Assembly: GCF_002159535.1 (NCBI RefSeq)
Contig: NZ_NFIU01000001.1
Location: 186,001 to 250,000, forward strand
From: Olsenella sp. An290
GTDB taxonomy: Bacteria > Actinomycetota > Coriobacteriia > Coriobacteriales > Atopobiaceae
DNA length: 64,000 nucleotides
Direction of reading: 5' to 3'
This document shows, one piece after another, positions 1,021 to 54,032 of the stretch (position 1 is its first letter; each line of letters opens with the position of its first letter). Made by a program: the position numbers and the translations under genes. The notes under the pieces were generated by a model. It was not told where the DNA came from. It saw nothing but the letters and a program-made list of their open reading frames with translations, and ran no database searches.

Positions 1021-2359
1021 GGTGCCCTCCCACCTGCCGGTTGCGCTCGCGCGCCGTTGCGCCGGGGCGCCAGCTGATACCCCGTACGAGGGCGTTTTTT
1101 CCAAAGCGCCGCTTGACCGCAATGGTTGCCTCGGCGAGGCGATGCTCGGCGGCCTCGGCCTCGGGGCTCGAGAAGAGGGTGAGCTCGGCGAGCTCCTCCG
1201 GCACGAGCCCGCCTACGGCAAGGTTGAGCCTCCTCACGCCGCGGTTGGGGTCCACGATCTCAGAGAAGAGGGAGAGGAAGGCGGCCGTGAGGGTCTCGCG
1301 CGAGTTGGTGGCCGCGCCGATGCCCCGGGAGGCGCTCGCCCCCTCGCCGTGGCGCCCGACGACGCGCGTTCCGTGCTCCCCCGTAAACGTTTCCGCCGGC
1401 ATCTCCGAGGAGCTCCGTTCCCCAAGCTCCTCCAGCGGCCCCCGCTCGCGCGCGTACCCCACAAAGAGCGAGACGTGGTTGCCGGCGAGCCCCTTCTCCA
1501 CGAGGTCGAGCGCGAGGGCGTCCACCATCTCGCGCAGGACCACCCGTGCCTCCTCGAACGCGTAGTCGCGCATGAGGACCTGCCCGGAGCACACCGAGCG
1601 CGCCTGCGGGCGGTACGCGTGAATCTCCGCCATCGTGCAGGGCTCGATGCCCCAGGCATGGTCTATGAGCAGCTCCGCATTGATGCCAAATTCCTCGTAG
1701 AGCGCCCGCTCGGGCAAGAGGGCCACCTCGCCCATGCACCGTGCTCCCATCGCCTCGAGCCGTCGCGCGATGCCGGGGCCGATCCCCCAGATGTCCGTGA
1801 TTGGCTGGTGCGGCCAGATCAGGCACTTGTAGCGCTCCTCGTCGAGCTCGCCAATGTTGTCTCGCGCGTGCTTGGCGGCGACGTCAAGCGCCACCTTTGC
1901 GAGGAAGAGGTTCGTGCCGACGCCCGCGGTGGCGCAGACGCCCGTCTCACGGCGCACCATCTCGATGAGCTCGACCGCAAGCTCGCGCGCGGTCTTTCCG
2001 TAGAGCGCGAGATAGGGCCCAACGTCGATGAAGACCTCGTCCACCGAGTAGACGTGGATGTCCTCGGGGGAGAAGTACCTGAGGTAGCTCGCGTAGATGC
2101 CGGCCGAGACCTCCATATAGCGACGCATGCGCGGCCGCGCCATCTCGTAGGTGATGCCGCGCGGAATCTCAAAGACGCGGCAGCGGTTGCGCACCCCCGC
2201 GGCCTTCATGGCAGGTGAGACGGCAAGGCAGATGGTCTTCTCGCCTCGTTTGGGGTCGGCCACCACGAGCCGGTGCTCGAAGGGGTCCTCCCCGCGGTCG
2301 ACGCACTCGACGGAGGCGTAGAAGCACTTGAGGTCGATGCAGAGATAGGAGCTCCCCAT
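1013..2359 (-). CDS. Y-family translesion DNA polymerase (UvrX/DinB/UmuC-like)
   Basis: A 448-residue error-prone polymerase that would copy past damaged bases. The palm shows CIDLKCFYASVE near residues 7-18 (metal-binding D9) and YSVDEVFIDV with D107/E108; the thumb has TAGVGTNLFLAKVA at 134-147 and a helix-hairpin-helix WGIGPGIARR at 181-190, followed by a little-finger domain. The start at 2359 is chosen because MGSSYLCIDL is the family N-terminus and a GGAAGGGA ribosome site precedes it; the open frame continues upstream only through non-coding hairpins. It overlaps the downstream YolD gene. A LexA-like box at 2450-2463 suggests SOS induction. Confidence 0.9.
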   Translation of the reverse strand: MGSSYLCIDLKCFYASVECVDRGEDPFEHRLVVADPKRGEKTICLAVSPAMKAAGVRNRCRVFEIPRGITYEMARPRMRRYMEVSAGIYASYLRYFSPEDIHVYSVDEVFIDVGPYLALYGKTARELAVELIEMVRRETGVCATAGVGTNLFLAKVALDVAAKHARDNIGELDEERYKCLIWPHQPITDIWGIGPGIARRLEAMGARCMGEVALLPERALYEEFGINAELLIDHAWGIEPCTMAEIHAYRPQARSVCSGQVLMRDYAFEEARVVLREMVDALALDLVEKGLAGNHVSLFVGYARERGPLEELGERSSSEMPAETFTGEHGTRVVGRHGEGASASRGIGAATNSRETLTAAFLSLFSEIVDPNRGVRRLNLAVGGLVPEELAELTLFSSPEAEAAEHRLAEATIAVKRRFGKNALVRGISWRPGATARERNRQVGGHHE

Positions 2360-6335: not shown

Positions 6336-6863
6336 ATGAGGGCGTTTGTTGCGCTGGAGCTGCCGGGGCCGTTTGCCGACGAGGTGGCGGGGCTCGCGCG
6401 CCGCCTTGGGGACAGGTGCGCGGGGCGGTTCGTGCCTGCGGAGAACTACCACCTCACGCTGGCGTTTCTCGGCGAGGTGGGGGAGGCGCAGGCGCGTCGC
6501 GCCATGGAGGCGCTCGACGCGGCGTGCGCGGGCGCGGCCCCGGTGCGGCTTTGCGCCCGCGGCCTGGGGACCTTTGGCCGCGGGCGCGACGCCACGCTCT
6601 GGTTGGGGGTCGAGAAGGACGAGGGGCTGATGGCGCTCGCGCGTCGCGTGCGCGCCGAGCTCGCCGCCCGCGGGGTCGCCTATGACGAGAAGGGCTTCCT
6701 GCCGCACGTCACCCTGGCCCGGCACGCCCGCGTGCCCTCGGGGGACCTCGGGGGCCTTGCGCTCCCCCTGCCGGACGTGGCGCGCAGGGTCACGCTCCTT
6801 CGGAGCATCCTCGGGCCGGAGGGCGCCCGCTACAAGCCGCTCTATACCGTTGGGCTGTCCTAG
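6336..6863 (+). CDS. thpR: RNA 2',3'-cyclic phosphodiesterase (2'-5' RNA ligase family)
   Basis: A 175-residue two-histidine phosphoesterase with both HxTx motifs: H39LT in NYHLTLAFLG and H124VT in LPHVTLARH. The family opens 2',3'-cyclic phosphates at RNA ends; the biological substrate is uncertain. Start at 6336 is chosen over an upstream in-frame ATG because GAGAGGGG lies just before it and MRAFVALEL is the family N-terminus. Monocistronic between divergent nrdA and convergent recQ. Confidence 0.9.
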   Translation: MRAFVALELPGPFADEVAGLARRLGDRCAGRFVPAENYHLTLAFLGEVGEAQARRAMEALDAACAGAAPVRLCARGLGTFGRGRDATLWLGVEKDEGLMALARRVRAELAARGVAYDEKGFLPHVTLARHARVPSGDLGGLALPLPDVARRVTLLRSILGPEGARYKPLYTVGLS

Positions 6864-6895: not shown

Positions 6896-8785
6896 TCAGG
6901 CGTTGATCCGCGCGAGGAAGAGGTCGCCGTAGCGCTCGGCCTTCTTGGCGCCCACGCCGGAGACGCCGAGGAACTCCTCGAGCGTGCGCGGCCGCTTGGC
7001 GCACATGTCCACGAGCGTGGCGTTGGAGAAGATGAAGTACGACGGCACGCCCTGCTCGCGCGCGAGCTCGCCGCGCAGCTCCGTGAGCTCGGCGTAGAGA
7101 ATCTGCCCGACCTCGTCCAGCTCGGAGACGTCCGTGGCCGCACGGGTCTTCTCGGGCGCTGCCGGAACGCGCGCCGCCTTGGGCACGCCGCGCGCCACCT
7201 TGAGGACGAAGGGCCCGTCCCAGGGCGCCTCCCGGCGCAGGAACGCGCCAGACGAGCCCGTGAGCGCGATCGTGGGGTAGTCCCCGCCCGTCCGCGCGAG
7301 CACGCCGCGGAAGACCAGCTCGTCAATCAGCTCGCGCACCCGTGCGGCGGGGACGTCGGCCATGATGCCGTAGGTGGAGAGCGTGTCAAAGCCGCGCGAG
7401 AGGACCTTCTCGCCACGCGAGCCGCGCAGCACGTCCGCGATCATCGCCGCCCCGGCCGACCTCCCGCGCTGGGCGATGCGCGCCACGCAGCTCACCACCT
7501 TGAGGGCGTCGGTGGTGGCGTCCACCTCCTCGAAGTCCGTGAGGCAGTTTCCGCAGTTGCCGCAGTACGCCGGCGCCTCCTCGCCAAAGTAGCGCAGGAT
7601 GTGGGCGCGCAGGCACTCGGTGGTGGTGGCGTAGAAGACCATCTGGCGCAGGCGCTCGGCGTCGCGCTCCGCGAGCGCCTCGACCTGCTCGTCCGTGAGC
7701 CCCTCGCGCGGCTCGCTCCGCGAGAGCAGGAACTCCGCCGTGTGCACGTCGCCGGGGGAGTAGAGCAGGAGGCACTCCGCCCTGGTGCCGTCGCGCCCGG
7801 CGCGCCCCGCCTCCTGGTAGTAGTTCTCCAGCGAGAGGGGCAGGTTGTAGTGGACCACGTAGCTCACGTTGGACTTGTCGATCCCCATGCCAAAGGCGTT
7901 GGTGGCCACCATCACGCGGGCACGGTCGTAGAGGAAGTCGTCCTGGTTGCGCTCGCGCTCCTCGGGCGAGAGCCCGGCGTGGTAGCGCGTGGCGAGAAGC
8001 CCCTCGTCGCGCAGCTCGTCGCAGACCTCCTCCACGGCGCGCCGGCTCGAGCAGTAGACGATGCCGGAGCGCTCGGCGCGCTGCCGGCAGAAGGCCACGA
8101 GCGTGCGGTCCTTCTCGGCGCGTCCGCGGGGGCGGGAGACGGCAAAGGAGAGGTTGGGCCGGTCAAAGCTCGCTATGACCACGAAGGGGTCCACGAGCCC
8201 GAGCGCGCCCACGATGTCCCTGCGCACGGCGCGCGTGGCGGTGGCCGTGAGCGCCATCACGGGCGGGCGCGCCGGAAGCGCCCCCAGGAACTCGATGATC
8301 CGCTGGTAGCTGGGGCGGAAGTCGTTGCCCCACTGCGAGATGCAGTGCGCCTCGTCCACGGCGACGAGCGCCACGCCGCGCGCGGAGACCGTCTCCACGA
8401 AGGCCGGGTCGTCGAGGCGCTCCGGCGCCACGTAGACGAGCGCGAGCGCGCCGGAGGCGATGCCGTGGAGCACGTTCGCGCGCTCGCCGCCCGAGAGCGT
8501 CGAGTTGAGGTACGAGGCGGCGACGCCCGCCTGGCGCAGGGCCCCCACCTGGTCTGCCATGAGCGAGATGAGCGGCGACACCACGAGCGTGAGCCCGCCC
8601 GTCCGCGCGGCGAGGGCGAGCGCCGGCACCTGGTAGCAGATGGACTTGCCGGCCGAGGTGGGCATGACCGCCAGCACGTCGCGCCCACAGAGCGCGGCGT
8701 CCACGATCTCCGCCTGGTGAGGGCGGAAGCTCTGATAGCCAAAGGTCTCTCGCAGGATGTCCAGGGCGGTTGGCGGTGTGGTCAT
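6896..8785 (-). CDS. recQ: ATP-dependent DNA helicase RecQ
   Basis: A 629-residue 3'-5' helicase. Walker A MPTSAGKS (K47), DEAH box at 144-147 followed by the RecQ aromatic loop (CISQWGNDFRPSY), helicase C domain, a Zn-binding RQC segment with clustered cysteines (ECLRAHILRYF ... YCGNCGNC), and a C-terminal HRDC domain covering about the last 80 residues. All expected domains are present and length is usual. RBS GAGGAG precedes the ATG. Roles are recombination repair and fork restart. Confidence 0.95.
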   Translation of the reverse strand: MTTPPTALDILRETFGYQSFRPHQAEIVDAALCGRDVLAVMPTSAGKSICYQVPALALAARTGGLTLVVSPLISLMADQVGALRQAGVAASYLNSTLSGGERANVLHGIASGALALVYVAPERLDDPAFVETVSARGVALVAVDEAHCISQWGNDFRPSYQRIIEFLGALPARPPVMALTATATRAVRRDIVGALGLVDPFVVIASFDRPNLSFAVSRPRGRAEKDRTLVAFCRQRAERSGIVYCSSRRAVEEVCDELRDEGLLATRYHAGLSPEERERNQDDFLYDRARVMVATNAFGMGIDKSNVSYVVHYNLPLSLENYYQEAGRAGRDGTRAECLLLYSPGDVHTAEFLLSRSEPREGLTDEQVEALAERDAERLRQMVFYATTTECLRAHILRYFGEEAPAYCGNCGNCLTDFEEVDATTDALKVVSCVARIAQRGRSAGAAMIADVLRGSRGEKVLSRGFDTLSTYGIMADVPAARVRELIDELVFRGVLARTGGDYPTIALTGSSGAFLRREAPWDGPFVLKVARGVPKAARVPAAPEKTRAATDVSELDEVGQILYAELTELRGELAREQGVPSYFIFSNATLVDMCAKRPRTLEEFLGVSGVGAKKAERYGDLFLARINA

Positions 8786-9724: not shown

Positions 9725-10545
9725 GCTACCTCATCCTGGAGTGCGCCACGAGCTATGCCGTGGCGCTCGACGACGAGGGCCGCTTCGTGAGGGTCCCCAA
9801 CCTCGGCTACGAGGTGGGACAGGAGGTCGACGATGTCGTCATCTTTGAGGGGAGCCCGTTCGGGGAGGCCGACGTCGTTCCCTTCGAGGCGCGCCGGGCG
9901 AGAAGAACGCGCAGGCGCCGCGCAGCGCTCGTTGCCGCGGCGGCCTGCCTCGCCGTTGCCGTGGTGGCGGGCGCGGCCGTCTGGCAGCTGCCCGTGGGAA
10001 CGGTCTACATGAGCATCAACCCCGAGGTGAGCATCGAGGTCAACCGCCTTGACCGCGTGGTGGGGCTCGACGGCGAGAACAATGACGGCGATGCCCTCAT
10101 CGAGGGGTTCGCATACTACGGGCGGACGCTCGACGAGGTCTCGGACGACCTCGCGGACCGTGCCGAGGAGCGGGGCTATCTCGATGACGGCGGGACGATC
10201 GAGCTCACGGTGGAGTCCGACGACGAGGAGTGGAGGACTGCGACCGAAGACCGGCTGATCGTGGAGCTCGAGGTGCACCTTGACCATCGGGTGGTGGTGA
10301 CGGGCGCCGCCGGTGGCGAGGACGCCGCGCCCGCGCCTCAGGTCGAGCAGGTGACGCCCCCCGAGCCCCCGACTGAGATGACCGTGCCGCCTGCGTTCGA
10401 TGACGACGACCGGGGCGAGGCCGACGACGATGACGGGACCGACGACGATGACGGGACCGACGACGGGGACGACGATGACGACAGCTGGGATGACGACGAT
10501 GACGACAGCTGGGATGACGACGATGACGACGAAGATGACGACTAG
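9721..10545 (+). CDS. RsgI-like membrane anti-sigma factor with Asp-rich extracellular tail
   Basis: A 274-residue protein: a short cytoplasmic RsgI-type domain (about 1-55), basic stretch, one membrane helix (about 67-88), then an extracellular domain opening YMSINPEVSIEVNRL. The N100-P101 bond is where RsgI proteins are known to self-cleave. The last about 50 residues are almost entirely Asp with two DDSWDDDDD units. It overlaps the sigma gene by four bases, so it is expected to bind and restrain that sigma factor and release it on an outside signal. Clostridial RsgI tails are carbohydrate-binding or catalytic; here the tail is acidic, so the signal is unknown. Confidence 0.75.
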   Translation: MSYLILECATSYAVALDDEGRFVRVPNLGYEVGQEVDDVVIFEGSPFGEADVVPFEARRARRTRRRRAALVAAAACLAVAVVAGAAVWQLPVGTVYMSINPEVSIEVNRLDRVVGLDGENNDGDALIEGFAYYGRTLDEVSDDLADRAEERGYLDDGGTIELTVESDDEEWRTATEDRLIVELEVHLDHRVVVTGAAGGEDAAPAPQVEQVTPPEPPTEMTVPPAFDDDDRGEADDDDGTDDDDGTDDGDDDDDSWDDDDDDSWDDDDDDEDDD

Positions 10546-10556: not shown

Positions 10557-10570
10557 GTTCTTCTCGCCCG
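10557..10570. repeat. GTTCTTCTCGCCCG intergenic word
   Basis: Lies 12 bases after the anti-sigma gene stop. One of many copies of GTTCTTCTCG or its complement just outside genes in this window; see the finding on this word for the other positions. Confidence 0.6.
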
Positions 10571-11615: not shown

Positions 11616-11685
11616 ACGCGCACTCGTGCAGAGGTTCTTCTCGCTCAACTGGGGAAACGCAAGAAGAGCGTGCACGAGTGCGCGT
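11616..11685. repeat. Intergenic stem element, 15-bp perfect arms
   Basis: ACGCGCACTCGTGCA (11616-11630) is exactly complementary to 11671-11685. The loop contains GTTCTTCTCG at 11634-11643 and AAGAAGAGCG, which extend the pairing. Same architecture as the elements near 36.2, 44.2, 48.1, 53.5-53.9 and 62.1 kb. Confidence 0.75.
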
Positions 11686-15801: not shown

Positions 15802-16644
15802 ATGCCCGTTCGCATCATCACCGACTCCGGCCTCGACGTCCCCGAGGCATGCTACGAGCGCCTCACGGTGCTGCCCCTGGGCATCACCTTTGGGACGAAG
15901 ACCTACGCCGACGGCGTCGACCTCACCAACGAGCGCTTCTACGAGCTGCTCATCGAGGGCGACGAGCTCCCCAAGACGAGCCAGGTCACCCCGTTCGCGT
16001 ACGAGCAGGTCTTCGAGCGCGTGCGCGAGGCGGGGGAGGAGGCCGTGGTGATCACGCTATCCTCCAAGCTCTCCGGCACCCACCAGAGCGCCGTGACGGC
16101 GGCGGCCGACTACCCGGAGATTCACGTGGTCGACGGCAAGAACGTCACCATCGGGCAGGGCGTCCTCGTGCTCTACGCGCTCCGCCTTGCAGACGAGGGC
16201 CTCTCCGCGGCCCAGATCGCCGCGCAGCTCGAGGAGGCGCGCGAGCGCGTCTGCGTTGTCGGGCTGCTCGACACGCTCGAGTACCTGCGCCGCGGCGGGC
16301 GCATCCCCAAGAGCGTGGGGGCGATCGGCGAGCTCCTCTCCATCAAGCCCGTGGTGGGCATTGTCGACGGCGAGGTCGTGATGCTCGGCAAGGCCCGCGG
16401 CTCCAAGAACGGCCGCAACCAGCTGCACCAGCAGGTCGAGAAGCACGGCATCGACTTCGACATGCCGGTGCTCCTGGGCTATGCGGGCCTCTCCGACAAG
16501 CTGCTCATGAAGTACCTGGACGACAACCGCGCCATCTGGGAGGGCAAGGTGGACGAGAAGGACCTCCCGATCTGCTCGGTCGGCGCGACCATTGGCACCC
16601 ACGTGGGCCCGGGTGCCATCGCCCTCGCGTTCTTCTGTAAATAG
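15802..16644 (+). CDS. DegV family fatty-acid-binding protein
   Basis: A 280-residue DegV protein: RIITDSGLD at the N-terminus, PKTSQVTPFAYEQVF, SSKLSGTHQSA, GLLDTLEYLRRGGRI and GAT(I)GTHVGPGA near the C-terminus are all family hallmarks. Family members bind a fatty acid; some (FakB) present it to the kinase FakA for phosphorylation and phospholipid synthesis. No fakA is present here. Two GC hairpins follow the stop. Confidence 0.85.
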   Translation: MPVRIITDSGLDVPEACYERLTVLPLGITFGTKTYADGVDLTNERFYELLIEGDELPKTSQVTPFAYEQVFERVREAGEEAVVITLSSKLSGTHQSAVTAAADYPEIHVVDGKNVTIGQGVLVLYALRLADEGLSAAQIAAQLEEARERVCVVGLLDTLEYLRRGGRIPKSVGAIGELLSIKPVVGIVDGEVVMLGKARGSKNGRNQLHQQVEKHGIDFDMPVLLGYAGLSDKLLMKYLDDNRAIWEGKVDEKDLPICSVGATIGTHVGPGAIALAFFCK

Positions 16645-16760: not shown

Positions 16761-17696
16761 CTACGCGACGCGCTCCACCGTGGTGCCGGAGCGGAGCTCC
16801 TCGGCGACGGCCATGTCAAAGTGGCCGGTGGAGGCGGAGAGGCAGTTGGCGCTCGCGCAGCTCATGGCATAGGCAAGCTGCTCCTCGACCGCCATGCCGC
16901 GCGCCATGGCCACGGCGAAGGCGCCCACCATCGTGTCGCCGGAGCCCACGGGGTTCACGACCTCGATCTTGGGCGCGCGGCCGCGGAAGACGCCCTCGTC
17001 GCAGGCCATCACGGAGCCGTCGCCGCCCAGGGAGACCACGACCTTCTCGATTCCACGGCTCTCGTGCACCTCGCGCGCGGCGGCCACGATCTCGTCGATG
17101 GACTCGGGCTTTCGGCCAAGAATCGCGCAGATCTCGTCCGTGTTGGGCTTCACCATGGTGGGGCGGGCGTCGAGGCTGTTCACGAGGAGCGCGCCGGAGG
17201 TGTCCAGGATGGCGGGCTTGCCGGCCTCGCGCACGATGGCGACGAGCTCGCGATAGATGTCGTCGCCCGCGCCCGCGGGGGCAGACCCGTTGAAGGTGAC
17301 CACGTCGGCGCGCGCCGCAATGTCAGCCACCTTCTCGCGCATGGCGGCGACCTCCTCGGGGCTCACGGGCCGCCCGGGCTCAAGGAACTCGGTCGAGCGG
17401 CCGTCGGGCTCGAGCACGTTCACGCAGCAGCGCGTCTCGGAGACGGCGTGAACAAAGTCATGCTCGATGCCGTCCGCGTCGAGCAGCTCGCAGAGGAGCC
17501 GGCCGTTGTTGCCGCCCACAAAGCCCGTTGCCACGATCTTCTCCCCGCAGGTCGCAACCGCGCGCGCGGCGTTGAGACCCTTGCCTCCCGCGTTGTCGAT
17601 GCACGTGGCGACGCGCATGACCGAGCCGGTCTCGAGCGGGCACGAAAGCTGGTACGCCTTGTCAATGGAGGTGTTGAGCGTGACGGTGGCGATCAT
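16761..17696 (-). CDS. PfkB family 1-phosphofructokinase / tagatose-6-phosphate kinase
   Basis: 311 residues with PfkB motifs: GGKGLNAARAVATCG near residue 37 and the ATP/catalytic loop NPVGSGDTMVGAFA near 245. Family members phosphorylate fructose-1-P or tagatose-6-P. Divergence from the beta-galactosidase/PTS operon favours a LacC-like role in handling the tagatose-6-P expected from galactosamine-6-P deamination, but FruK cannot be excluded from sequence alone. Confidence 0.8.
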   Translation of the reverse strand: MIATVTLNTSIDKAYQLSCPLETGSVMRVATCIDNAGGKGLNAARAVATCGEKIVATGFVGGNNGRLLCELLDADGIEHDFVHAVSETRCCVNVLEPDGRSTEFLEPGRPVSPEEVAAMREKVADIAARADVVTFNGSAPAGAGDDIYRELVAIVREAGKPAILDTSGALLVNSLDARPTMVKPNTDEICAILGRKPESIDEIVAAAREVHESRGIEKVVVSLGGDGSVMACDEGVFRGRAPKIEVVNPVGSGDTMVGAFAVAMARGMAVEEQLAYAMSCASANCLSASTGHFDMAVAEELRSGTTVERVA

Positions 17697-17819
17697 GGCG
17701 TCTCCTTTTGAGGGTCGGGTGGGCTACTCTGCCATCTTATCGTCCGAAGGGCGGTTGGGGTAGGGGCGCGGCCTCCCCCTCCGCGCGTTTCTAAATCCAT
17801 TCTGAAAACTTACTGATAG

Positions 17820-17835
17820 AGTTGTTACTACCAGT
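17820..17835. promoter_or_regulatory. Candidate GntR (NagR/DasR-type) operator upstream of the glycan operon
   Basis: AGTTGTTACTACCAGT matches 10 of 16 positions of the DasR/NagR-type consensus ACTGGTCTAGACCAGT, with a good right half-site ACCAGT. It lies in the 370-bp AT-rich divergent region 17697-18066, which otherwise holds no gene. A better copy is at 22937-22952. Confidence 0.4.
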
Positions 17836-17983
17836 TAATGCTGCGTACATTTGTTAGAAAAAGCGATAAAAGCGCTAAAAATATGCCCTCTGAGCTGGTT
17901 AAACGTCATTCTGCCGCTCATGGCTCAAAATCGACCGTTCAGGGCTCTCTCCATAGAGTGTCGATATTTGTGGCGAAGACGTG

Positions 17984-17989
17984 TATAGT
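17984..17989 (+). promoter_or_regulatory. -10 element of the GH35-PTS operon promoter
   Basis: TATAGT about 80 bases before the GH35 start, in the AT-rich divergent region. The -35 region at the right distance is weak, as expected for a regulated promoter. Confidence 0.35.
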
Positions 17990-18066
17990 GGCTACTGTGC
18001 GCTTTTTGCCGCCAGGCACCGAAAGAAGTACCGAGTTCCTAGTTGGATTTGGACGCGAGGAGAGGC

Positions 18067-19863
18067 ATGCACACGTTTGAGATTCGCGACCAGTTCATGC
18101 TGGATGGGGAGCCGTTCAGGATTCTGTCCGGCTCTATTCACTATTTCCGCGTCCATCCGTCCGACTGGCACCACTCTCTCTACAACCTCAAGGCCATGGG
18201 CTTCAACACGGTTGAGACCTATGTCCCGTGGAACCTGCACGAGCCGCGCCCCGGCGAGTTCAATTTCGAGGGCATCTGCGACCTCACCCGCTTCCTTGAC
18301 GAGGCGGCCGAGCTCGGCCTCTGGATCATCGTGCGCCCGTCGCCGTTCATCTGCGCCGAGTGGGAGTGGGGCGGCCTTCCCGCCTGGCTCCTCGCGGACC
18401 GCTCCCTGCGCCCGCGCTCGCGCGATCCCAAGTTCCTCGCGCGCGTTGCCTCTTACTATGATGCGCTCATGCCGCTCCTGGTGGAGCGTCAGGTCACGCA
18501 CGGCGGCAACATCCTCATGATGCAGGTGGAGAACGAGTACGGCTCCTACTGCGAGGACAAGGAGTACCTGCGCTCCATCCGCGACCTCATGCTCGAGCGC
18601 GGCGTTGACGTTCCGCTCTGCACCTCCGACGGCCCGTGGCGCGGGTGCCTCCGCGCCGGCACCCTCATCGATGACGACGTCTTCGTCACCGGCAACTTTG
18701 GCTCGCGCGCGGGTGAGAACTTCGCCCAGCTCAAGGCCTTCCATGAGGAGCACGGCAAGAGGTGGCCCCTCATGTGCATGGAGTTCTGGGACGGCTGGTT
18801 CAACCGCTGGGGCGAGAACGTCATCACCCGCGACGCCCAGGACCTCGCCGACTCCGTCCGCGAGCTCCTCGAGCTCGGTGGCTCCATCAACCTATACATG
18901 TTCCACGGCGGCACCAACTTCGGCTTCATGAACGGGTGCTCCGCGCGTCACACGCATGACCTCCACCAGGTCACCTCCTATGACTACGACGCCCCGCTCA
19001 ACGAGGAGGGCAACCCCACCGAGAAGTGGTACAAGCTCCGTGACGTGGTGCGCGACCTCTTCCCGGACGCCTGGACGGCCGAGCCCCTCATCAAGGATGC
19101 CGTGGCCCTCGAGGGGGTTGCGCTCAAGGAGCGCGCGGGCCTCTTCGAGAACCTCGACCGTCTCGCCGAGCCGGTGAGCTCGCTCTATCCCCAGCCCATG
19201 GAGGACATGGGCCAGTCCTACGGCTACACCCTCTATCGCTCCTCCATCGAGCGTGACACGCTCGAGCCCGAGCGCATCCGCGTGGTGGACGGCCGTGACC
19301 GCGCCCAGGTCTTCGTCAACGGGGAGCTCGTGGCCACGCAGTACCAGGAGCACATCGGCGAGGACATCCGCTATGCCCTCCCCCAGGAGAACAACCAGCT
19401 TGACGTCCTTGTCGAGAACATGGGCCGCGTGAACTACGGCCACAAGTTCCTCGCGGACACGCAGCACAAGGGCATCCGGACCGGCGTGGCCGTTGACCTC
19501 CACTTTATCCTGGGGTGGGAGGCCTATTGCCTTCCCATGGATGACGTCGCTAAGATTGACTACTCCGCCGGCTGGAGCGAGGGCACGCCCTCGTTCTCCC
19601 GCTTCGAGTTCACGCTCGACGAGCCGGCCGACACCTATCTGGACACTACGGGCTTTGGCAAGGGCGTCGCGTTTGTGAACGGCGTCAACGTGGGGCGCTA
19701 CTGGGAGATCGGCCCGATCTCCACGCTCTACGTTCCGCACGGCCTCACGCGCGCCGGCGCGAACGAGCTCGTTCTGTTTGAAACGGAGGGACGTGTCGGA
19801 GACACCATCTCCCTGCGCTCCGAGCCCCTCATCAGGCATCTCGACAAAGAAGGAGTTGAGTAG
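18067..19863 (+). CDS. bgaC: GH35 beta-galactosidase (BgaC/GnbG type)
   Basis: 598 residues with no signal peptide, so cytoplasmic. GH35 signatures: GSIHYFRVHP near 22-31, QVENEYGSY near 153-161 holding the acid/base Glu, and nucleophile E239 in CMEFWDGWF; two C-terminal jelly-roll domains follow. In pneumococcus BgaC acts on Gal-beta-1,3-GlcNAc and in Lactobacillus casei GnbG acts on phosphorylated galacto-N-biose; the PTS genes directly downstream favour a phosphorylated or imported disaccharide substrate. The ATG at 18067 has GAGGAGAGG upstream; the frame extends eight codons further to a start without a ribosome site. PTS IIB begins two bases after the stop. Confidence 0.9.
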   Translation: MHTFEIRDQFMLDGEPFRILSGSIHYFRVHPSDWHHSLYNLKAMGFNTVETYVPWNLHEPRPGEFNFEGICDLTRFLDEAAELGLWIIVRPSPFICAEWEWGGLPAWLLADRSLRPRSRDPKFLARVASYYDALMPLLVERQVTHGGNILMMQVENEYGSYCEDKEYLRSIRDLMLERGVDVPLCTSDGPWRGCLRAGTLIDDDVFVTGNFGSRAGENFAQLKAFHEEHGKRWPLMCMEFWDGWFNRWGENVITRDAQDLADSVRELLELGGSINLYMFHGGTNFGFMNGCSARHTHDLHQVTSYDYDAPLNEEGNPTEKWYKLRDVVRDLFPDAWTAEPLIKDAVALEGVALKERAGLFENLDRLAEPVSSLYPQPMEDMGQSYGYTLYRSSIERDTLEPERIRVVDGRDRAQVFVNGELVATQYQEHIGEDIRYALPQENNQLDVLVENMGRVNYGHKFLADTQHKGIRTGVAVDLHFILGWEAYCLPMDDVAKIDYSAGWSEGTPSFSRFEFTLDEPADTYLDTTGFGKGVAFVNGVNVGRYWEIGPISTLYVPHGLTRAGANELVLFETEGRVGDTISLRSEPLIRHLDKEGVE

Positions 19864-19865
19864 AC

Positions 19866-20330
19866 ATGATCGTTGGAGCCCGCGTTGACTTTCGTCTGAT
19901 CCACGGCCAGGTCGGCAACCTCTGGGCCAACGCCCGTCAGGTGAGCCGCTTCATGGTCGTCGATGACGACGTTGCCACCGATGACACCCAGAAGCAGGTC
20001 CTGCGCATGGCCACGCCTGCCACCTGCAAGCTTTCCGTCCTGCCCGTCGATAAGGCTGCCGCCAACATCGTCGCCGGCAAGTACGACACCCAGCGCCTGT
20101 TCATCGTTGCCAAGAAGCCCGAGGTCTACGCCCGCCTGGTTAAGGCCGGCGTGAAGATCGACGAGCTCATCCTGGGCAACATGACCACGATGAACAGCGT
20201 CAAGAAGTACGGCCTCAACCTCAACTGCGATCAGGGCGACCTCGACGCCTTCGCCGAGCTCGAGAAGCTGGGCGTCAAGATGGTCGTTCAGCTGACCCCG
20301 CAGAACAACCCGGAGCCCTTCAAGCTCTAA
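19866..20330 (+). CDS. PTS mannose-family IIB component
   Basis: 154 residues; RVDFRLIHGQVGNLW at the N-terminus places the phosphorylated histidine at H13, as in other mannose/sorbose-family IIB proteins. It takes phosphate from IIA and hands it to the sugar entering through IIC/IID. It starts two bases after the GH35 stop, so the enzyme and transporter are co-translated. The likely sugar is galacto-N-biose or GalNAc by comparison with gnb and bgaC loci. Confidence 0.9.
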   Translation: MIVGARVDFRLIHGQVGNLWANARQVSRFMVVDDDVATDDTQKQVLRMATPATCKLSVLPVDKAAANIVAGKYDTQRLFIVAKKPEVYARLVKAGVKIDELILGNMTTMNSVKKYGLNLNCDQGDLDAFAELEKLGVKMVVQLTPQNNPEPFKL

Positions 20331-20334
20331 GTGG

Positions 20335-20375
20335 CGCTACGCCGTGAGGGGAGATGCACGGCACCATATAGCGTA
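20335..20375 (+). other. Intercistronic stem-loop between IIB and IIC
   Basis: Nested pairings CGCTA/TAGCG and GCCGTG/CACGGC lie in the 91-bp gap. No T-run, so possibly an mRNA processing or stability element. Confidence 0.3.
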
Positions 20376-20421
20376 GGTATGTACGGTAACGTTCGAGTAA
20401 GTTAGAAGGAGGAAAAGAACC

Positions 20422-21327
20422 ATGATTCAGTGGTGGCAGATTCTTCTGCTCACGCTCTACGCGGCCTTCCAGATCATGGACGAGCTGCACTGGTACTCCA
20501 GCGCCGGCTCCGCCGTGTTCTCTGGCTTCTTCACGGGCCTCGTCATGGGCGACATGGCAACTGGTCTTTTCATCGGTGGTAGCATGCAGCTCACCATCCT
20601 CGGCGTCGGCACCTTCGGCGGCGCCTCCCGCATCGACGCCAACTCCGGCACCCTCGTTGCTACGGCCTTCGCCGTCAGCCAGGGCATGGACCCGGAGCAG
20701 GCGCTCGCCGCACTCGGCGTGCCTGTGGCCGCCATCCTCGTCTACACCGACATCCTTGGCCGCTTCGCCAACACCTTCTGGGGTCACGCGTGCGACGCCG
20801 ATGTCGAGAAGATGAACTGGAACGCCTACAACGTTCACTACTGGATGGGCGCTGTTTCTTGGTGCCTCTCCCGTGCCCTCCCGGTCTTCCTGGCCCTGGC
20901 CTTCGGCCAGCCGGTCGTTGAGGCCATCACCACCGCCCTCAACGGCGACTTCAAGTGGCTCGGCGACGGCCTCACGGTTGCTGGTGGCATGCTGCCCGCC
21001 GTCGGCTTCGCCATCCTGCTTCGCTACCTCCCGGTCAAGAAGCACATTGCCTACCTGATCCTCGGCTTCGTGATCGCCGCCCTCCTCGGCACCGCCTTCA
21101 CGAGCATCGTCACCCTCGGTGGCGACGCCGCCAACCTCGCTGCTGGCCTCAACGGCCTGCTTGGTGAGGACGCTGCGGTTGCCGTTGGTGGTGGCTACAA
21201 GAGCCTGTCGATGCTGACGATCGCCCTCATCGGCTTCGCTCTTGCCTACATCTACTATCAGCAGCACCAGAACGCGCCTGTCGCTGTCTCTGCTGGCACG
21301 GAGGGAGATGACGACGATGAGCTCTAA
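20422..21327 (+). CDS. PTS mannose-family IIC component
   Basis: 301-residue membrane permease with about eight hydrophobic segments; GLVMGDMATGLFIGGSMQL and GGASRIDANSGTL are typical of IIC proteins of this family. With IID it forms the sugar channel. It ends in an acidic EGDDDDEL tail overlapping the IID start by 11 bases. RBS AAGGAGGAAA precedes the ATG. Confidence 0.9.
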   Translation: MIQWWQILLLTLYAAFQIMDELHWYSSAGSAVFSGFFTGLVMGDMATGLFIGGSMQLTILGVGTFGGASRIDANSGTLVATAFAVSQGMDPEQALAALGVPVAAILVYTDILGRFANTFWGHACDADVEKMNWNAYNVHYWMGAVSWCLSRALPVFLALAFGQPVVEAITTALNGDFKWLGDGLTVAGGMLPAVGFAILLRYLPVKKHIAYLILGFVIAALLGTAFTSIVTLGGDAANLAAGLNGLLGEDAAVAVGGGYKSLSMLTIALIGFALAYIYYQQHQNAPVAVSAGTEGDDDDEL

Positions 21328-22135
21328 GACTGGCTACAAGCTTACCAAGGCTGACTTCCAGCAGATTAACCGTCGTAACCTGGTCGGCTTCCAGGCTGGC
21401 TGGAACTACGAGCGCATGCAGCACTCCGGTTACCTCTGGATCATCCTTCCGCAGCTTCGCAAGATCTACGGGGACAACACCGAGGAGCTGAAGCAGGCCT
21501 GCCGTACCCAGTGCTCGCCGTTCTTCAACACCTCCAACTTCCTCAACACGATCATCACGGGCATCGACCTGGCCATCGAGGAGACTGACGGCATCGCCGG
21601 CATGGAGACCGTCGCTTCCCTGAAGACCGGCCTCATGGGCCCGCTCGCCTCCATCGGCGACTCCATCTTCGGCTCGCTCCTGCCGACCATCTTCGGCGCT
21701 CTTGCCGCCAACATGGCCATGCAGGGCAACCCGCTCGGCATCTTCATCTGGATTGCCGTCAACATCGTGGTCGACTGGTTCCGCTGCAAGCAGACCTACA
21801 TCGCCTACGATCAGGGCATGAAGCTCGTCACGACCATGTCTGACAAGCTCAACGCCATCACCGACGCCGCCACCGTCATGGGCGTCTTCATGGTTGGTGC
21901 CCTCATCTCCACCAACGTCGGCATCGTGTTCAGCTGGGTCCCCGAGATCGGTGGCGTTACCGTCAACATCCAGGACATCCTGAACAACATCTGCCCGAAG
22001 CTCGTGCCCGCCGCTCTTGTCGGCTTCGTGTACTGGCTCCTCGGCAAGAAGGGCATGACCTCGACCAAGGCGATCTTCATCGTCCTCGTCATCGGCATTG
22101 TCCTTGGTGCCTTCGGCATCATCATGAAGGGCTAG
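21317..22135 (+). CDS. PTS mannose-family IID component
   Basis: 272 residues: LTKADFQQINRRNLVGFQAGWNYERMQHSGY is the family N-terminus, followed by GPLASIGDSIFGSLLPTIFGALAANMA and C-terminal membrane helices. The ATG at 21317 is preferred over 21308 because GGAGGGAG is then nine bases upstream. Partner of IIC. Confidence 0.9.
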   Translation: MSSKTGYKLTKADFQQINRRNLVGFQAGWNYERMQHSGYLWIILPQLRKIYGDNTEELKQACRTQCSPFFNTSNFLNTIITGIDLAIEETDGIAGMETVASLKTGLMGPLASIGDSIFGSLLPTIFGALAANMAMQGNPLGIFIWIAVNIVVDWFRCKQTYIAYDQGMKLVTTMSDKLNAITDAATVMGVFMVGALISTNVGIVFSWVPEIGGVTVNIQDILNNICPKLVPAALVGFVYWLLGKKGMTSTKAIFIVLVIGIVLGAFGIIMKG

Positions 22136-22152
22136 GCCTGAGTGATTCTCAA

Positions 22153-22178
22153 GCGGTGCCCGGTCTCCCGGGCACCGC
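22153..22178 (+). terminator. Hairpin directly after IID
   Basis: GCGGTGCCCGG / CCGGGCACCGC, 11-bp perfect arms and a TCTC loop, 18 bases after the IID stop; no strong T-run. Confidence 0.5.
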
Positions 22179-22203
22179 ACCTAGTCTTCGTGACATCAGT
22201 GAG

Positions 22204-22270
22204 CGGGCGCGCATCTCACGACCGGCCTCGTGCCTAGGTCCAATCTCCCGAGATGCGCGCCCGTTCTTCT
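22204..22270 (+). terminator. Long hairpin with T-rich tail before the unknown gene
   Basis: 14-bp perfect arms CGGGCGCGCATCTC (22204-22217) and its complement (22250-22263), followed by TTCTTCTAT. It looks able to terminate or attenuate transcription between IID and the following gene. Confidence 0.6.
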
Positions 22271-22286
22271 ATAGAAAGGCAGCGTC

Positions 22287-22904
22287 TTGGAACCCGGGGT
22301 TATCGTTTTTATCGTCATCATCTGCGTCTACGCGCTGGGCAGCGAGCTGTTCAGACGCTACTACGAGGCCAAGTACGAGGGCTTCTTCAACACGGGCCAC
22401 TATGGTGAGGCGCTGGCCGCCCTTGACAAGATCCCCGCGCGCGTGACCATGTCCACCTATCGCCAGTACTATCTGCGGTTCGCGTGCTATCAGGCGATGG
22501 ACGACGAGGAAATGGCAACCCGCATGATCGAGCTGCTCGTTCGCATGCGCAACTCCGCCAGGCGCCAGGCAACGCTTTTGCCCGTTGCCTTCAACTACTT
22601 CACGCAGATTGGAAACAAGGAGCGTGCCAAGGAGCTCCTGTCAGACCTCAAGGCCTGCAAGGCGGCTGACAAGGCGACCATCACGGACTGCCAGCTGACC
22701 TACGACATCGTCTTTGGCAAGCGCTACGACTACATCGATCAAATGGAGAAGATGCTCGACAAGGCTGCCCCGAGCCTTCAGGGCAAGCTCTGCTTCCTTT
22801 TGTGGAAGCAGTACGCCAACAAGGGGAGCAAGACCCACGCAAAGCAATACAAGCGTCGCTACGAAGAGCTGACTAATTCGTCGAAATCGCAGGGTGAGCG
22901 CTAA
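22287..22904 (+). CDS. Unknown membrane-anchored helical-repeat protein inside the PTS operon
   Basis: Not recognised. A 205-residue protein from a TTG start with AAAGG upstream; no ATG is available until residue 55. Residues 1-20 form one membrane helix (VIVFIVIICVYALGSELF), followed by a basic/aromatic stretch and TPR-like helical pairs (HYGEALAALDKIP, YRQYYLRFACYQAMDD, QIGNKERAKELLSDL, LWKQYANKGSKTHAKQYKRRYEEL). The topology suggests a cytoplasmic helical domain tethered to the membrane. It sits between IID and IIA behind hairpins, so it could scaffold or regulate the PTS; no function is claimed. Confidence 0.7.
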   Translation: MEPGVIVFIVIICVYALGSELFRRYYEAKYEGFFNTGHYGEALAALDKIPARVTMSTYRQYYLRFACYQAMDDEEMATRMIELLVRMRNSARRQATLLPVAFNYFTQIGNKERAKELLSDLKACKAADKATITDCQLTYDIVFGKRYDYIDQMEKMLDKAAPSLQGKLCFLLWKQYANKGSKTHAKQYKRRYEELTNSSKSQGER

Positions 22905-22922
22905 GCTCACCTTAGGAATAGC

Positions 22923-22928
22923 TATACT
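22923..22928 (+). promoter_or_regulatory. -10 element of an internal promoter for IIA-gntR-agaS
   Basis: TATACT about 80 bases before the IIA start, with the 22937-22952 operator directly over the expected transcription start. The matching -35 is poor. Confidence 0.4.
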
Positions 22929-22936
22929 GCTGGTAA

Positions 22937-22952
22937 TCTGGTATCAACCAGT
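22937..22952. promoter_or_regulatory. GntR-type operator (dre-like palindrome)
   Basis: TCTGGTATCAACCAGT matches 12 of 16 positions of the DasR/NagR-family site ACTGGTCTAGACCAGT, with perfect CTGGT/ACCAG arms. The regulator encoded 545 bases downstream (23497) is a HutC-type GntR protein, so autoregulation is likely. Confidence 0.65.
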
Positions 22953-23004
22953 TGTCGTTTGGGTCTTCCGAGTGCGCTCGGAAGATGTCGAAGGGAGAAC
23001 CAAA

Positions 23005-23433
23005 ATGATCGGCTTCATCCTCACCGGCCACGGCCACTTCTCCAACGGTCTCAAGAGCGCTGTCGACATGGTCGCCGGCCCGCAGCAGTCGTTCGAGATC
23101 GTCCCCTTCGAGGAGGCCGCCGCGGGCGAGTACGCCTCCAAGCTCCGTGACGCCATCACTGCCATGCGCGGCGAGTGCGACGGCGTCCTCGTCTTTGTCG
23201 ACCTCGTGGGCGGCACCCCGTTCAACCAGTCCATGATGGTTTCCAACGACGTCGACAACGTTGCCGTGGTGGCTGGCACCAACCTGCCCATGCTCATCGA
23301 CATCGTCATGGCTCGCTCCGACAGCTCCACCCTCTCCGACCTCGTTGCCGAGGCCGTCGAGGTGGGCAAGGAGGGCGTCTGCCACATGTCCCTCCAGGGT
23401 GGCTCCTCCGACGACGAGGACGACGAGATGTAA
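23005..23433 (+). CDS. PTS mannose-family IIA component
   Basis: 142 residues starting MIGFILTGHGHFSNGL; H9 in TGHG aligns with the phosphorylated histidine of mannose-family IIA. It accepts phosphate from HPr. AAGGGAG precedes the ATG; the frame open to 22894 crosses the promoter and operator and was not used. IIA is separated from IIB/C/D by the unknown gene and has its own putative promoter. Ends in an acidic DDEDDEM tail. Confidence 0.9.
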   Translation: MIGFILTGHGHFSNGLKSAVDMVAGPQQSFEIVPFEEAAAGEYASKLRDAITAMRGECDGVLVFVDLVGGTPFNQSMMVSNDVDNVAVVAGTNLPMLIDIVMARSDSSTLSDLVAEAVEVGKEGVCHMSLQGGSSDDEDDEM

Positions 23434-23496
23434 GGCCCCTTCATCTTCTGAAGGGACTAAGGGCGCGATGGCGCTCGGAGAGCGAGGGGAGGCGAA

Positions 23497-24228
23497 GTGA
23501 CGCCCAGGGGTAGGAAGCAGCCGCTGTACGACCAGCTGGTTGACATCCTGACTGAGAAGATCGAGCAGGAGTACCGCCCGGGCGACCTGCTGCCCTCGGA
23601 GCGTGAGCTCTCCGAGCGCTATGGCCTCTCGCGCACGACGGTAAGGCTGGCCCTGCAGGAGCTCGAGCAGCTTGGCATGGTCGTTCGCCAGCACGGGAGG
23701 GGGACGTTCGTGGCCGACCGCTCGGCCCAGACCACCAACCTCCTCCAGGTCTACAGCTTTACCGACCAGATGCGCTCCATGGGTCGTGACCCCAAGACCA
23801 CGATTCTCGAGTTCACGGAGCTTGACGCAGACAAGAAGCTCGCCGAGCGGATGGGCGTGCGACTGGGGGACCGCCTCTTTAAGCTCAAGCGCCTGCGCAC
23901 CGCCGACGGCATTCCCATGATGGTCGAGCTGAGCTATCTTCCCGTGCGGAAGTTCCTCACGCTCAAGCGCCCCCTGCTCGACAGCATGCCGCTCTACGAG
24001 ATTATGGAGAACGTCTACAACGAGAAGATTCGCGTGGCCGAGGAGGAGTTCTTCGCAAGCGTGGCCAGGCCCTCCGACGCACACCTCCTCGACATTGCAG
24101 AGAACGCGCCCGTGCTCGACCTCGTGCGCACGACGTACAACATGAGCAACGAGATCATCGAGTACACGCTCTCGGTCGCGCGAGCCGATCAGTTCAAGTA
24201 CAAGGTGCTTCACCAGCGCCTGCCCTAG
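23497..24228 (+). CDS. GntR/HutC-type regulator with UTRA ligand domain
   Basis: 243 residues: winged helix at about 1-75 (PLYDQLVDILTEKIEQ ... LLPSERELSERYGLSRTTVRLALQELEQLGMVVRQHGRGTFV) and a UTRA effector domain (LFKLKRLRTADGIPMMVELSYLP ... IIEYTLSVARADQFKYKV). NagR/DasR relatives bind amino-sugar phosphates. GTG start at 23497 after a GAGGGGAGG site. The two dre-like sites at 17820 and 22937 are the probable targets. Confidence 0.85.
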   Translation: MTPRGRKQPLYDQLVDILTEKIEQEYRPGDLLPSERELSERYGLSRTTVRLALQELEQLGMVVRQHGRGTFVADRSAQTTNLLQVYSFTDQMRSMGRDPKTTILEFTELDADKKLAERMGVRLGDRLFKLKRLRTADGIPMMVELSYLPVRKFLTLKRPLLDSMPLYEIMENVYNEKIRVAEEEFFASVARPSDAHLLDIAENAPVLDLVRTTYNMSNEIIEYTLSVARADQFKYKVLHQRLP

Positions 24229-24290
24229 CCTTGGTACGAAGGTGCGGTCGGGCCTCTGGCTCGGCCGCAGGGGAAGAAAGGAAACCGCCC

Positions 24291-25457
24291 ATGTTCGAGA
24301 AGTCCACCGAAGAGCTCAAGGCGCTCGGCGCGGACATCACCACCGCAGAGATCAAGCAGCAGCCCGAGCTCTGGCTCGACACCCTCAAGATCTACCAGGA
24401 CAACCTCGAGGCCATCGAGAAGTTCCTCGCCGACGCCCGTGGCATGGGCGAGGGTCGCCTCTCCGTCGTCTTCACCGGTGCCGGCACCTCCGACTACGTT
24501 GGCGACACCGCGGCCCCCTACCTGCGCCACGCCGGCGACACCTCCCTCTACGACTTCAAGCCGATCGCGACGACCGACATCGTCTCCGCGCCGTGCGACT
24601 TCCTCAACCCCGACGAGCCCACCGTGCTCGTGTCCTTTGCGCGCTCGGGCAACAGCCCCGAGTCCCTTGCCGCGGTGCAGGTTGCCAAGACCTTCGTGAA
24701 GAACGTCAAGTTCCTCAACATCACCTGCGCCCCCGAGGGCAAGCTCGCCGTTGAGTCCGCCGATGATCCGGACGCCCTCACGCTTCTCATCCCGCGCGCC
24801 AACGACAAGGGCTTCGCCATGACCGGCTCCTACAGCTGCATGACGCTGCTCACCACCCTCATCTTTGACGCCGCCACGATCGAGCAGAAGACCGCCTGGG
24901 TCGAGCAGATTGCCAAGATGGGCGAGGACGTCGTGGCCCGCGAGGCCGAGATCGCGGCCTTCCTTGCCGGCGACTTCAACCGCGTGACCTACCTCGGCTC
25001 CGGCTCCTTCGTTGGCCTTGCCCAGGAGAGCCAGCTCAAGATCCTCGAGCTCGCCCACGGCCTCGTCGCCACCTCCTGGGACAGCTCCATGGGCTATCGT
25101 CACGGGCCCAAGTCCTTCGTTGACGACAAGACCCTCGTCTTCGTCTTCATGAACAACGACGCCTACACCCGCCAGTACGACCTCGACATCCTGAACGAGA
25201 TCAACGGCGACAAGATCGCGCAGAAGACCATCGCTGTCCAGCAGGACCTTGCGCCCGTCTTCGAGGGCGAGTCCTTCACCTTCGCCGGCTTTGACGCTCT
25301 GCCCGAGGGCTACCTCGCGCTTCCGTTCATCATGGTCGCCCAGGTGGTCTCGCTGCTGAACTCCGTGCGCGTGGGCAACACGCCGGACACCCCCAGCCCC
25401 ACCGGCACCGTCAACCGCGTGGTCAAGGGCGTGACCATCCACCCCTTCGAGGTCTAG
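24291..25457 (+). CDS. agaS: SIS-domain sugar isomerase/deaminase AgaS-like
   Basis: 388 residues with two SIS domains (VVFTGAGTSDYVGDTAAPYL; VLVSFARSGNSPESLAAVQ; VTYLGSGSFVGLAQESQLKILEL). AgaS-type enzymes deaminate and isomerise galactosamine-6-phosphate to tagatose-6-phosphate; GlmS-like isomerases are relatives but carry an added amidotransferase domain absent here. AAGAAAGGAAA precedes the ATG. Placed after gntR and before nagA, as in gnb/aga clusters. Confidence 0.85.
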   Translation: MFEKSTEELKALGADITTAEIKQQPELWLDTLKIYQDNLEAIEKFLADARGMGEGRLSVVFTGAGTSDYVGDTAAPYLRHAGDTSLYDFKPIATTDIVSAPCDFLNPDEPTVLVSFARSGNSPESLAAVQVAKTFVKNVKFLNITCAPEGKLAVESADDPDALTLLIPRANDKGFAMTGSYSCMTLLTTLIFDAATIEQKTAWVEQIAKMGEDVVAREAEIAAFLAGDFNRVTYLGSGSFVGLAQESQLKILELAHGLVATSWDSSMGYRHGPKSFVDDKTLVFVFMNNDAYTRQYDLDILNEINGDKIAQKTIAVQQDLAPVFEGESFTFAGFDALPEGYLALPFIMVAQVVSLLNSVRVGNTPDTPSPTGTVNRVVKGVTIHPFEV

Positions 25458-25459: not shown

Positions 25460-25472
25460 GTTCTTCTCGCCC
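25460..25472. repeat. GTTCTTCTCGCCC intergenic word
   Basis: Begins three bases after the agaS stop. Same word as at 10557, 42808, 48041 and 53440. Confidence 0.6.
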
Positions 25473-36228: not shown

Positions 36229-36274
36229 CGAGAAGAACGTCGAGTGCGCGCTGGCGGGCGCGCACTCGACGCGT
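36229..36274 (+). terminator. Hairpin with CGAGAAGAAC head, likely pheT terminator
   Basis: CGAGAAGAAC (36229-36238) directly precedes a 13-bp perfect hairpin GTCGAGTGCGCGC / GCGCGCACTCGAC (36239-36270), followed by GCGTTTTG. Probably ends the pheST transcript. Confidence 0.6.
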
Positions 36275-37043: not shown

Positions 37044-37054
37044 GTCCTTCTCGC
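37044..37054. repeat. GTCCTTCTCGC intergenic word
   Basis: Variant of GTTCTTCTCG, 15 bases after the preceding stop. Confidence 0.45.
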
Positions 37055-42807: not shown

Positions 42808-42821
42808 GTTCTTCTCGCCCG
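42808..42821. repeat. GTTCTTCTCGCCCG intergenic word
   Basis: In the divergent region between the PBP gene and tyrS. Identical 14-mer to 10557-10570. Confidence 0.6.
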
Positions 42822-47155: not shown

Positions 47156-47169
47156 CGGGCGAGAAGAAC
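47156..47169. repeat. CGGGCGAGAAGAAC word between the nifU-like gene and lgt
   Basis: Reverse complement of the GTTCTTCTCGCCCG word. It starts two bases after the nifU-like stop and ends at the lgt GTG, so its GAGAAG may also serve as the ribosome site. Confidence 0.6.
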
Positions 47170-53439: not shown

Positions 53440-53453
53440 GTTCTTCTCGCCCG
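53440..53453. repeat. GTTCTTCTCGCCCG intergenic word
   Basis: 37 bases after the tetR stop; identical to the words at 10557 and 42808. Confidence 0.6.
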
Positions 53454-53943: not shown

Positions 53944-54032
53944 GCGGGGAAGGGGCGGCCTCCGGCCCCGGACCTCCGGCCCCCTGGCCCTCGGCCCGCG
54001 GCACCGGGTCCTTCTCGCCTGACGCGCGGCTG

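Follow-up and report, generated by a model that had tools for sequence, protein, structure and literature searches.

A few Gram-negative bacteria use DNA tags to import DNA of their own kind, and why such sequence-specific uptake evolved is debated; to our knowledge, it is known in two Gram-negative families only. Among the words known to recur throughout bacterial genomes, Chi and KOPS are polar, HIP1 is palindromic, REP-type elements are long, and uptake sequences are asymmetric and strand-neutral. Inverted pairs, associated with terminators, are common for DNA uptake sequences (DUS). Sequence-specific uptake has been described as limited to the Neisseria and Haemophilus groups, with nearly every other competent species importing DNA of any sequence (PMC12040237, 2025). 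The DUS of the Neisseriaceae, which is read by the minor pilin ComP, is a non-palindromic word of 10–12 bp with thousands of copies about 0.4–1.1 kb apart, located on both strands, in and between genes, with an invariant core and dialect positions across genera (PMC3630211, PMC7371117); its density has been given as one per 400–1100 bp (PMC7371117). The USS of the Pasteurellaceae is likewise short and over-represented, its core being fixed and its flanking consensus weaker (general knowledge and, in part, PMC12616744). Micrococcus luteus, an actinobacterium, has tad and comEA/EC without comG, and its transformation needs Tad (PMC4322843; the arrangement also in PMC6370729). The motif described below resembles the neisserial DUS in length, asymmetry, copy number, spacing, placement and dialect structure, whereas its sequence is unrelated and its host belongs to the monoderm Actinomycetota. 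It shares with the USS the short over-represented word, the fixed core and the weaker flanks, but differs from it in sequence, in its flank (CCH, as against AT-rich in the USS) and in its host, since USS hosts are Gram-negative.

The window, that is, the whole stretch of 64,000 nucleotides analysed (bases 186001–250000 of contig 1; 67% GC), belongs to a draft genome of 2.15 Mb in 42 contigs that may be a metagenome assembly. Genes were called with a home-made simple codon-usage finder, and a detailed sample covered 775 kb of the genome in stretches (36%), its first part being 377 kb. The word GTTCTTCTCG was present in 19 exact copies on both strands of the window, compared with 0.17 expected from dinucleotide shuffles. 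Genome-wide, 549 exact copies were counted (284 and 265 on the two strands), against 13 (5 and 8) of the reversed word used as a control. Between genes of the 377-kb sample there were 49 copies for 0.7 expected under an order-3 Markov model of intergenic DNA, an approximately 70-fold excess, and words differing from GTTCTTCTCG by one base had 0–13 intergenic copies each, tolerance being found mainly at positions 2–3. An earlier note on this DNA had listed twelve exact copies and five one-base variants, all of which were present, and its view that the excess is far above chance was borne out, with a frequency far beyond the Markov expectation and copies extending outside the window. The list was incomplete by seven copies (Table 1). 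The description of the copies as nearly all intergenic was true of 13 of the 19 by our gene calls, and it partly reflects the reader's selection, because six of the seven missed copies lie in genes. The frequent extension by CCCG was confirmed: GTTCTTCTCGCCCG occurred 77 times genome-wide, and the reversed control never did.

Table 1. Copies of the exact word and of the wider motif in the window, and motif-free stretches. The rows for GNNCTTCTCG are part of its 74 window copies.
Feature	Position	Strand	Context
exact GTTCTTCTCG	9899..9908	-	inside gene 9721-10545; missed in earlier note
exact GTTCTTCTCG	10557..10566	+	intergenic, 11 bp past stop of gene 9721-10545; CCCG extension
exact GTTCTTCTCG	11634..11643	+	intergenic, between inverted-repeat arms GCGCACTCGTGCA / TGCACGAGTGCGC
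exact GTTCTTCTCG	25460..25469	+	intergenic, 2 bp past stop of gene 24291-25457
exact GTTCTTCTCG	30736..30745	+	8 bp before called start of gene 30754-32013; inside if GTG start 30547 is used; missed in earlier note
exact GTTCTTCTCG	34678..34687	+	inside pheT (33640-36108); missed in earlier note
exact GTTCTTCTCG	36229..36238	-	intergenic, adjoins GC-rich hairpin
exact GTTCTTCTCG	42808..42817	+	intergenic, divergent genes either side
exact GTTCTTCTCG	45009..45018	-	inside called gene 44350-46848; missed in earlier note
exact GTTCTTCTCG	47160..47169	-	between called genes 46918-47154 and 47170-47997
exact GTTCTTCTCG	48041..48050	+	intergenic, 43 bp past stop of gene 47170-47997
exact GTTCTTCTCG	48107..48116	+	intergenic
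exact GTTCTTCTCG	48378..48387	-	start of called gene 48368-52804; missed in earlier note
exact GTTCTTCTCG	49279..49288	+	inside gene 48368-52804; missed in earlier note
exact GTTCTTCTCG	53440..53449	+	intergenic, 36 bp past stop of gene 52825-53403
exact GTTCTTCTCG	55957..55966	-	intergenic, 34 bp upstream of gene 55293-55922 (-)
exact GTTCTTCTCG	57980..57989	-	inside gene 57626-58819; missed in earlier note
exact GTTCTTCTCG	62156..62165	+	left arm of inverted pair between convergent genes
exact GTTCTTCTCG	62191..62200	-	right arm of inverted pair with 62156 copy
GNNCTTCTCG as GGTCTTCTCG	2234..2243	+	
GNNCTTCTCG as GTCCTTCTCG	6611..6620	-	
GNNCTTCTCG as GTCCTTCTCG	8108..8117	+	
GNNCTTCTCG as GTCCTTCTCG	16554..16563	-	
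GNNCTTCTCG as GCTCTTCTCG	30912..30921	+	
GNNCTTCTCG as GCTCTTCTCG	35001..35010	-	
GNNCTTCTCG as GTCCTTCTCG	37044..37053	+	variant in earlier note
GNNCTTCTCG as GCTCTTCTCG	40154..40163	-	
GNNCTTCTCG as GCTCTTCTCG	44114..44123	+	
GNNCTTCTCG as GTCCTTCTCG	45900..45909	+	
GNNCTTCTCG as GCTCTTCTCG	52477..52486	-	
GNNCTTCTCG as GTCCTTCTCG	53563..53572	+	variant in earlier note
GNNCTTCTCG as GTCCTTCTCG	53721..53730	-	variant in earlier note
GNNCTTCTCG as GTCCTTCTCG	54008..54017	+	variant in earlier note
GNNCTTCTCG as GTCCTTCTCG	55695..55704	+	
GNNCTTCTCG as GCTCTTCTCG	56260..56269	-	variant in earlier note
GNNCTTCTCG as GTCCTTCTCG	57926..57935	+	
GNNCTTCTCG as GTCCTTCTCG	58406..58415	+	
GNNCTTCTCG as GTCCTTCTCG	58547..58556	+	
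motif-free stretch, 7.2 kb, 62% GC	17050..24295	.	GH35 beta-galactosidase gene (18067-19863) within same-strand gene run
tRNA-flanked island	L147:17484-20000 + L148:1-6535 (G000:C12:177484-186535)		tyrosine integrase, fused methylase/specificity restriction protein, Abi_2 and FRG-domain genes

The exact word was part of a wider motif. In coding DNA, CTTCTCG preceded by G at position -3 occurred 760 times, compared with 364 expected from synonymous-codon shuffles within genes, and CTTCTCG with A, C or T at -3 occurred 127 times for 190 expected. Because CTTCTCG exceeded the synonymous-codon null only with G at -3, the motif was defined as GNNCTTCTCG. The variable pair was preferentially TT or TC, followed by C, C and not-G (flank CCH), and the extended form gives the Thermophilibacter consensus 5'-GTTCTTCTCGCCH-3'. 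GNNCTTCTCG has 74 copies in the window and 2,562 genome-wide, roughly one every 0.8 kb; it is a short non-palindromic word present far above chance, as uptake sequences are. Most of its copies lie in coding DNA, where the density was 1.2 per kb, as compared with 1.5 in tandem and divergent gaps and 2.97 in convergent gaps (775 kb). The coding copies occupied every frame in both orientations. Sense copies numbered 321 for 68 expected under the same null, almost five-fold, and antisense copies 439 for 296; one sense frame demands CTT, which makes up 9% of leucine codons. The synonymous shuffle ignores codon-pair context and some other words exceed its null about 2-fold. Taken by itself, the coding excess in high-GC genomes is therefore not compelling, and the argument is carried by the intergenic excess and by a genus of 50% GC described next.

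The PheT protein of the window matched those of Thermophilibacter provencensis, T. gallinarum, T. mediterraneus and Olsenella-named relatives at 86–93%, and the host is probably a Thermophilibacter-type member of the Atopobiaceae (Actinomycetota). The loci gathered by this PheT match are homologous rather than independent. All 30 same-genus relatives contained exact GTTCTTCTCG, in about 100–700 copies each. As an index tolerant of composition, although uncorrected for codon usage, the count of GNNCTTCTCG was divided by that of CNNCTTCTCG. This ratio was 8–13 in Thermophilibacter, 13–21 in the sister genus g14, 7 in g30, 4.6–5.4 in g23 and g26, 2.5–3.9 in g3, g17, g24 and g61, and 1.3–1.6 in g15 and g19, so that the motif is common to much of the Atopobiaceae. 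It was about 1.6–2.2 in g47, a large genus of a neighbouring family (probably Collinsella), 0.7–1.6 in family f2 and mostly 1–3 in other families of the class. In the g14 genome G139 (50% GC), coding GNNCTTCTCG numbered 181 for 30 expected from synonymous codons, a six-fold excess, and words containing CTTCTCG topped all over-represented 8-mers of its coding DNA. Collinsella loci of similar composition had no coding excess (23 for 25 expected). In the motif the G at -3 and CTTCTCG were fixed, and the NN pair and the flanks varied by genus, the pair being TT/TC in Thermophilibacter, GC/GG in genome G026 and CT in G059. The lineage shifts at these positions resemble the dialects of uptake sequences, as does the combination of coding and intergenic copies with an invariant core. 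Outside the window's family, one genus of the same neighbouring family (g69 of family f10, genome G191) also had a high ratio, 5.8, and the Coriobacteriaceae/Collinsella-named loci L086, L088 and L089 held 10 intergenic copies in 7 kb. Such occurrences could mean that the motif was acquired through exchange, or that it arose earlier and was later lost.

Copies within genes were compared among 23 relatives. Rare-codon sense copies were kept in 83% of same-amino-acid comparisons, compared with 38% for one-base variants, whereas antisense copies, which use the commonest codons, were retained like their variants (78% and 79%). The result is supportive rather than strong, because it comes from 15 alignment columns in related genomes. 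Within the 775 kb, the longest run without a copy was a 9-kb island of 58% GC adjoining a tRNA gene, which from its gene content appears to be a defence-type integrative element. Its low motif density may be a further likeness to the neisserial DUS. Genes with atypical codon usage had no lower motif density, and density showed no trend with codon typicality; depletion in acquired DNA is thus seen in one island.

A check for competence genes showed that the genome carries a comEA–comEC operon (ComEA with HHH_3 and SLBB domains), dprA, and a tad cluster with T2SSE, a T2SSF pair (the only T2SSF matches of the genome), TadE-like and SAF/RcpC-like genes. The competence machinery expected of a host that uses uptake sequences is thus present, although its presence neither supports nor refutes uptake, because ComEC and T2SSF/Tad-type proteins were found in nearly every relative, whether it has the motif or not. 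The gene set is like that of M. luteus, the actinobacterium with Tad/Flp-dependent transformation (PMC4322843), in its tad genes, comEA and comEC; that report mentions no uptake sequence. Compared with neisserial DUS, the pilus genes here are Tad-type instead of those of a type IVa pilus with ComP.

We consider GNNCTTCTCG to be a putative DNA uptake sequence (DUS/USS)-like element, with a probability of roughly 55%, because it fits uptake sequences in every tested property except a clear inverted-pair preference and a general depletion in atypical genes. Among the three candidates that the earlier note had named, this one fits best, the motif being strand-symmetric, Poisson-spaced (CV 1.0–1.1), family-wide and dialect-like; for the uptake itself, its receptor and the competence of these bacteria, the step from sequence to function is ours. 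A sequence-specific receptor of a competence pilus, probably belonging to the Tad/Flp pilus or else ComEA acting behind that pilus, would bind motif-bearing double-stranded DNA. Once drawn in, this DNA would be transferred via ComEA and ComEC and would recombine with DprA assisting. Motif-bearing alleles would be imported more often, and the motif would build up wherever it is harmless. The broader proposal, on which we are evenly divided, is that the Atopobiaceae, as monoderm Gram-positive bacteria, evolved an uptake sequence of their own, whose dialects differ by genus and whose reader is the Tad/Flp pilus or ComEA, independently of the Neisseriaceae and Pasteurellaceae. Literature searches returned nothing on DNA uptake or transformation in these bacteria, and open-licence papers contained no report of an uptake sequence in a Coriobacteria-type group; a text search for the word itself gave mostly unrelated eukaryotic papers, probably because of primers. 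If right, the reading would be new, since this group has no such report in those papers and uptake is stated to be sequence-independent in almost every competent species outside Neisseria and Haemophilus (PMC12040237).

Next after a DUS-like function ranks a HIP1-like role, in which the iterated word would be kept by an orphan DNA methyltransferase, by repair bias or by a nucleoid-associated protein binding GNNCTTCTCG; we regard this as rather unlikely. HIP1 of cyanobacteria (GCGATCGC) is likewise highly iterated and conserved in its clade, its function is unsettled, and a methyltransferase link has been proposed (PMC4390886); moreover, the distribution of GNNCTTCTCG would also fit binding by another protein. 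However, HIP1 is an 8-bp palindrome and the present motif an asymmetric word of 10–13 bp. The A needed at -4 was found in only 6 of 76 intergenic copies, perfect palindromes numbered 0 in the 775 kb of this genome (G000) and 5 in G139, and no methyltransferase was tied to GNNCTTCTCG. A half-site of the palindrome CGAGAAGNNCTTCTCG was rejected as a candidate, the second arm not being preferred in Thermophilibacter. Inverted pairs of GNNCTTCTCG were not favoured in Thermophilibacter, a difference from DUS, with no such preference in G000 or G006. In G139, 13 inverted and 3 direct pairs within 60 bp were found, which is suggestive.

The strand distribution of the motif bears on Chi and chromosome-organisation motifs, also proposed in the earlier note. 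In three complete genomes of relatives, analysed in 20-kb stretches with replichores inferred from gene direction, leading- and lagging-strand counts of GNNCTTCTCG were even (152/167, 344/367 and 81/73). The motif thus occurs on both strands without replication-strand polarity, as expected of uptake sequences, and Chi and chromosome-orientation functions are disfavoured because of these equal counts, Chi being polarised to the leading strand (PMC8022716). A Chi-type site without strand polarity, controlling an AddAB-like helicase-nuclease, is improbable in our view. The motif is, like Chi, a short word enriched in conserved DNA, with frequent copies in conserved coding DNA and none in the acquired island, and two adjacent PDDEXK_1 nuclease-domain genes on contig C40, which are AddA/AddB-like, occur here and in nearly all relatives. 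Nevertheless, such a pair is also found in lineages without the motif, and the strong intergenic excess is not expected of Chi. KOPS or another chromosome-orientation motif was rejected, polarity from origin to terminus being absent from the three complete genomes.

A terminator, an RNA 3'-end processing signal or another RNA-level element, the third candidate of the earlier note, is very doubtful. The proximity to stop codons (about 40 bases) noted for many copies holds for those at 10557, 25460, 47160 and 53440, that at 48041 lying just beyond, but exact GTTCTTCTCG in the 775 kb was no closer to stops than expected from random placement in the same gaps (22 copies within 50 bp, 21.1 ± 2.9 expected), and the emphasis on gene ends was misplaced, as was that on intergenic placement, given that coding DNA holds most motif copies. 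For GNNCTTCTCG a modest preference was observed (62 copies within 50 bp, 46 ± 4.5 expected; 775 kb), together with the mild preference for convergent gaps and a slight bias to the same strand near stops (60:38 for same and opposite), and some intergenic copies form terminator-like hairpins. Several findings speak against the RNA-level reading: copies are found in both orientations, most are in coding DNA and in all frames, and the exact word lies at chance distance from stops. Two other candidates were rejected: a Shine-Dalgarno or promoter element, as GTTCTTCTCG pointed towards starts about as often as away from them, and a gene-end signal, which was ruled out by the orientation and placement test.

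That this word is the core of a small dispersed repeat or of a mobile element (REP, MITE) is scarcely credible and already contradicted: some intergenic copies, such as those at 11634 and 62156/62191, do sit in longer inverted repeats, but flanks beyond about 13 bp differ between copies with nothing shared past CCH, coding copies arise with synonymous codon choice, and gaps at orthologous positions either contain the word or lack it, with no inserted block in common. Intergenic copies turn over fast, orthologous gaps in relatives mostly lacking the word or having it elsewhere. Least probable is a side effect of base composition and codon usage (in high-GC genes GAG AAG NNC is common). Codon usage alone predicts two thirds of the antisense copies (296 of the 439), and other words reach about 2-fold over the shuffle null, but this reading is already contradicted by the intergenic data, the sense excess, the six-fold excess in the 50% GC genus and its lack in Collinsella loci.

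If experiments confirm an uptake role for GNNCTTCTCG, it would be the first such case in Gram-positive bacteria, and a third, independent case, in gut bacteria and with a different pilus. Direct tests would then become possible of what the receptor is and how self-specific transformation evolved, hard-to-engineer commensals would be predicted to be transformable once the motif is added to DNA, and the motif could serve as a marker for recent horizontal acquisitions in these genomes. Even without an uptake role, a word at about one copy per kb across much of a family needs explaining.

Several other repeats were observed. Seven copies of TTACGTACAC in both orientations lie within 400 bp of a convergent-gene gap (53526–53922), forming a clustered inverted-repeat array; 13 copies were found in the 775 kb, all intergenic. 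At 62109–62243, five GGTATGTACA-type words flank the 62156/62191 pair, so that the gap between these convergent genes holds one long, nested inverted repeat. The hairpin words GTGACTGTCCC / GGGACAGTCAC recur at 32195–32226 and 46005–46036 and in L018, L024–L026 and L028 (19 in 775 kb), and relatives have orthologous gaps filled by GGGGACAGTCCCC-type hairpins, for example after the gene ending at 25457. These hairpin words look like REP-type or small mobile hairpins. Apart from repeats, positions 27023–30487 encode a predicted protein of 1,154 aa that combines BNR (sialidase-like) repeats with an F5/8 type C domain and a pair of Listeria-Bacteroides repeats. The word ATTAAYGCRCANAATCTG, a possible regulator or promoter box, is present in opposite orientations at 48130 and 48206; its seven copies in the 775 kb are always intergenic and often just after GTTCTTCTCG.
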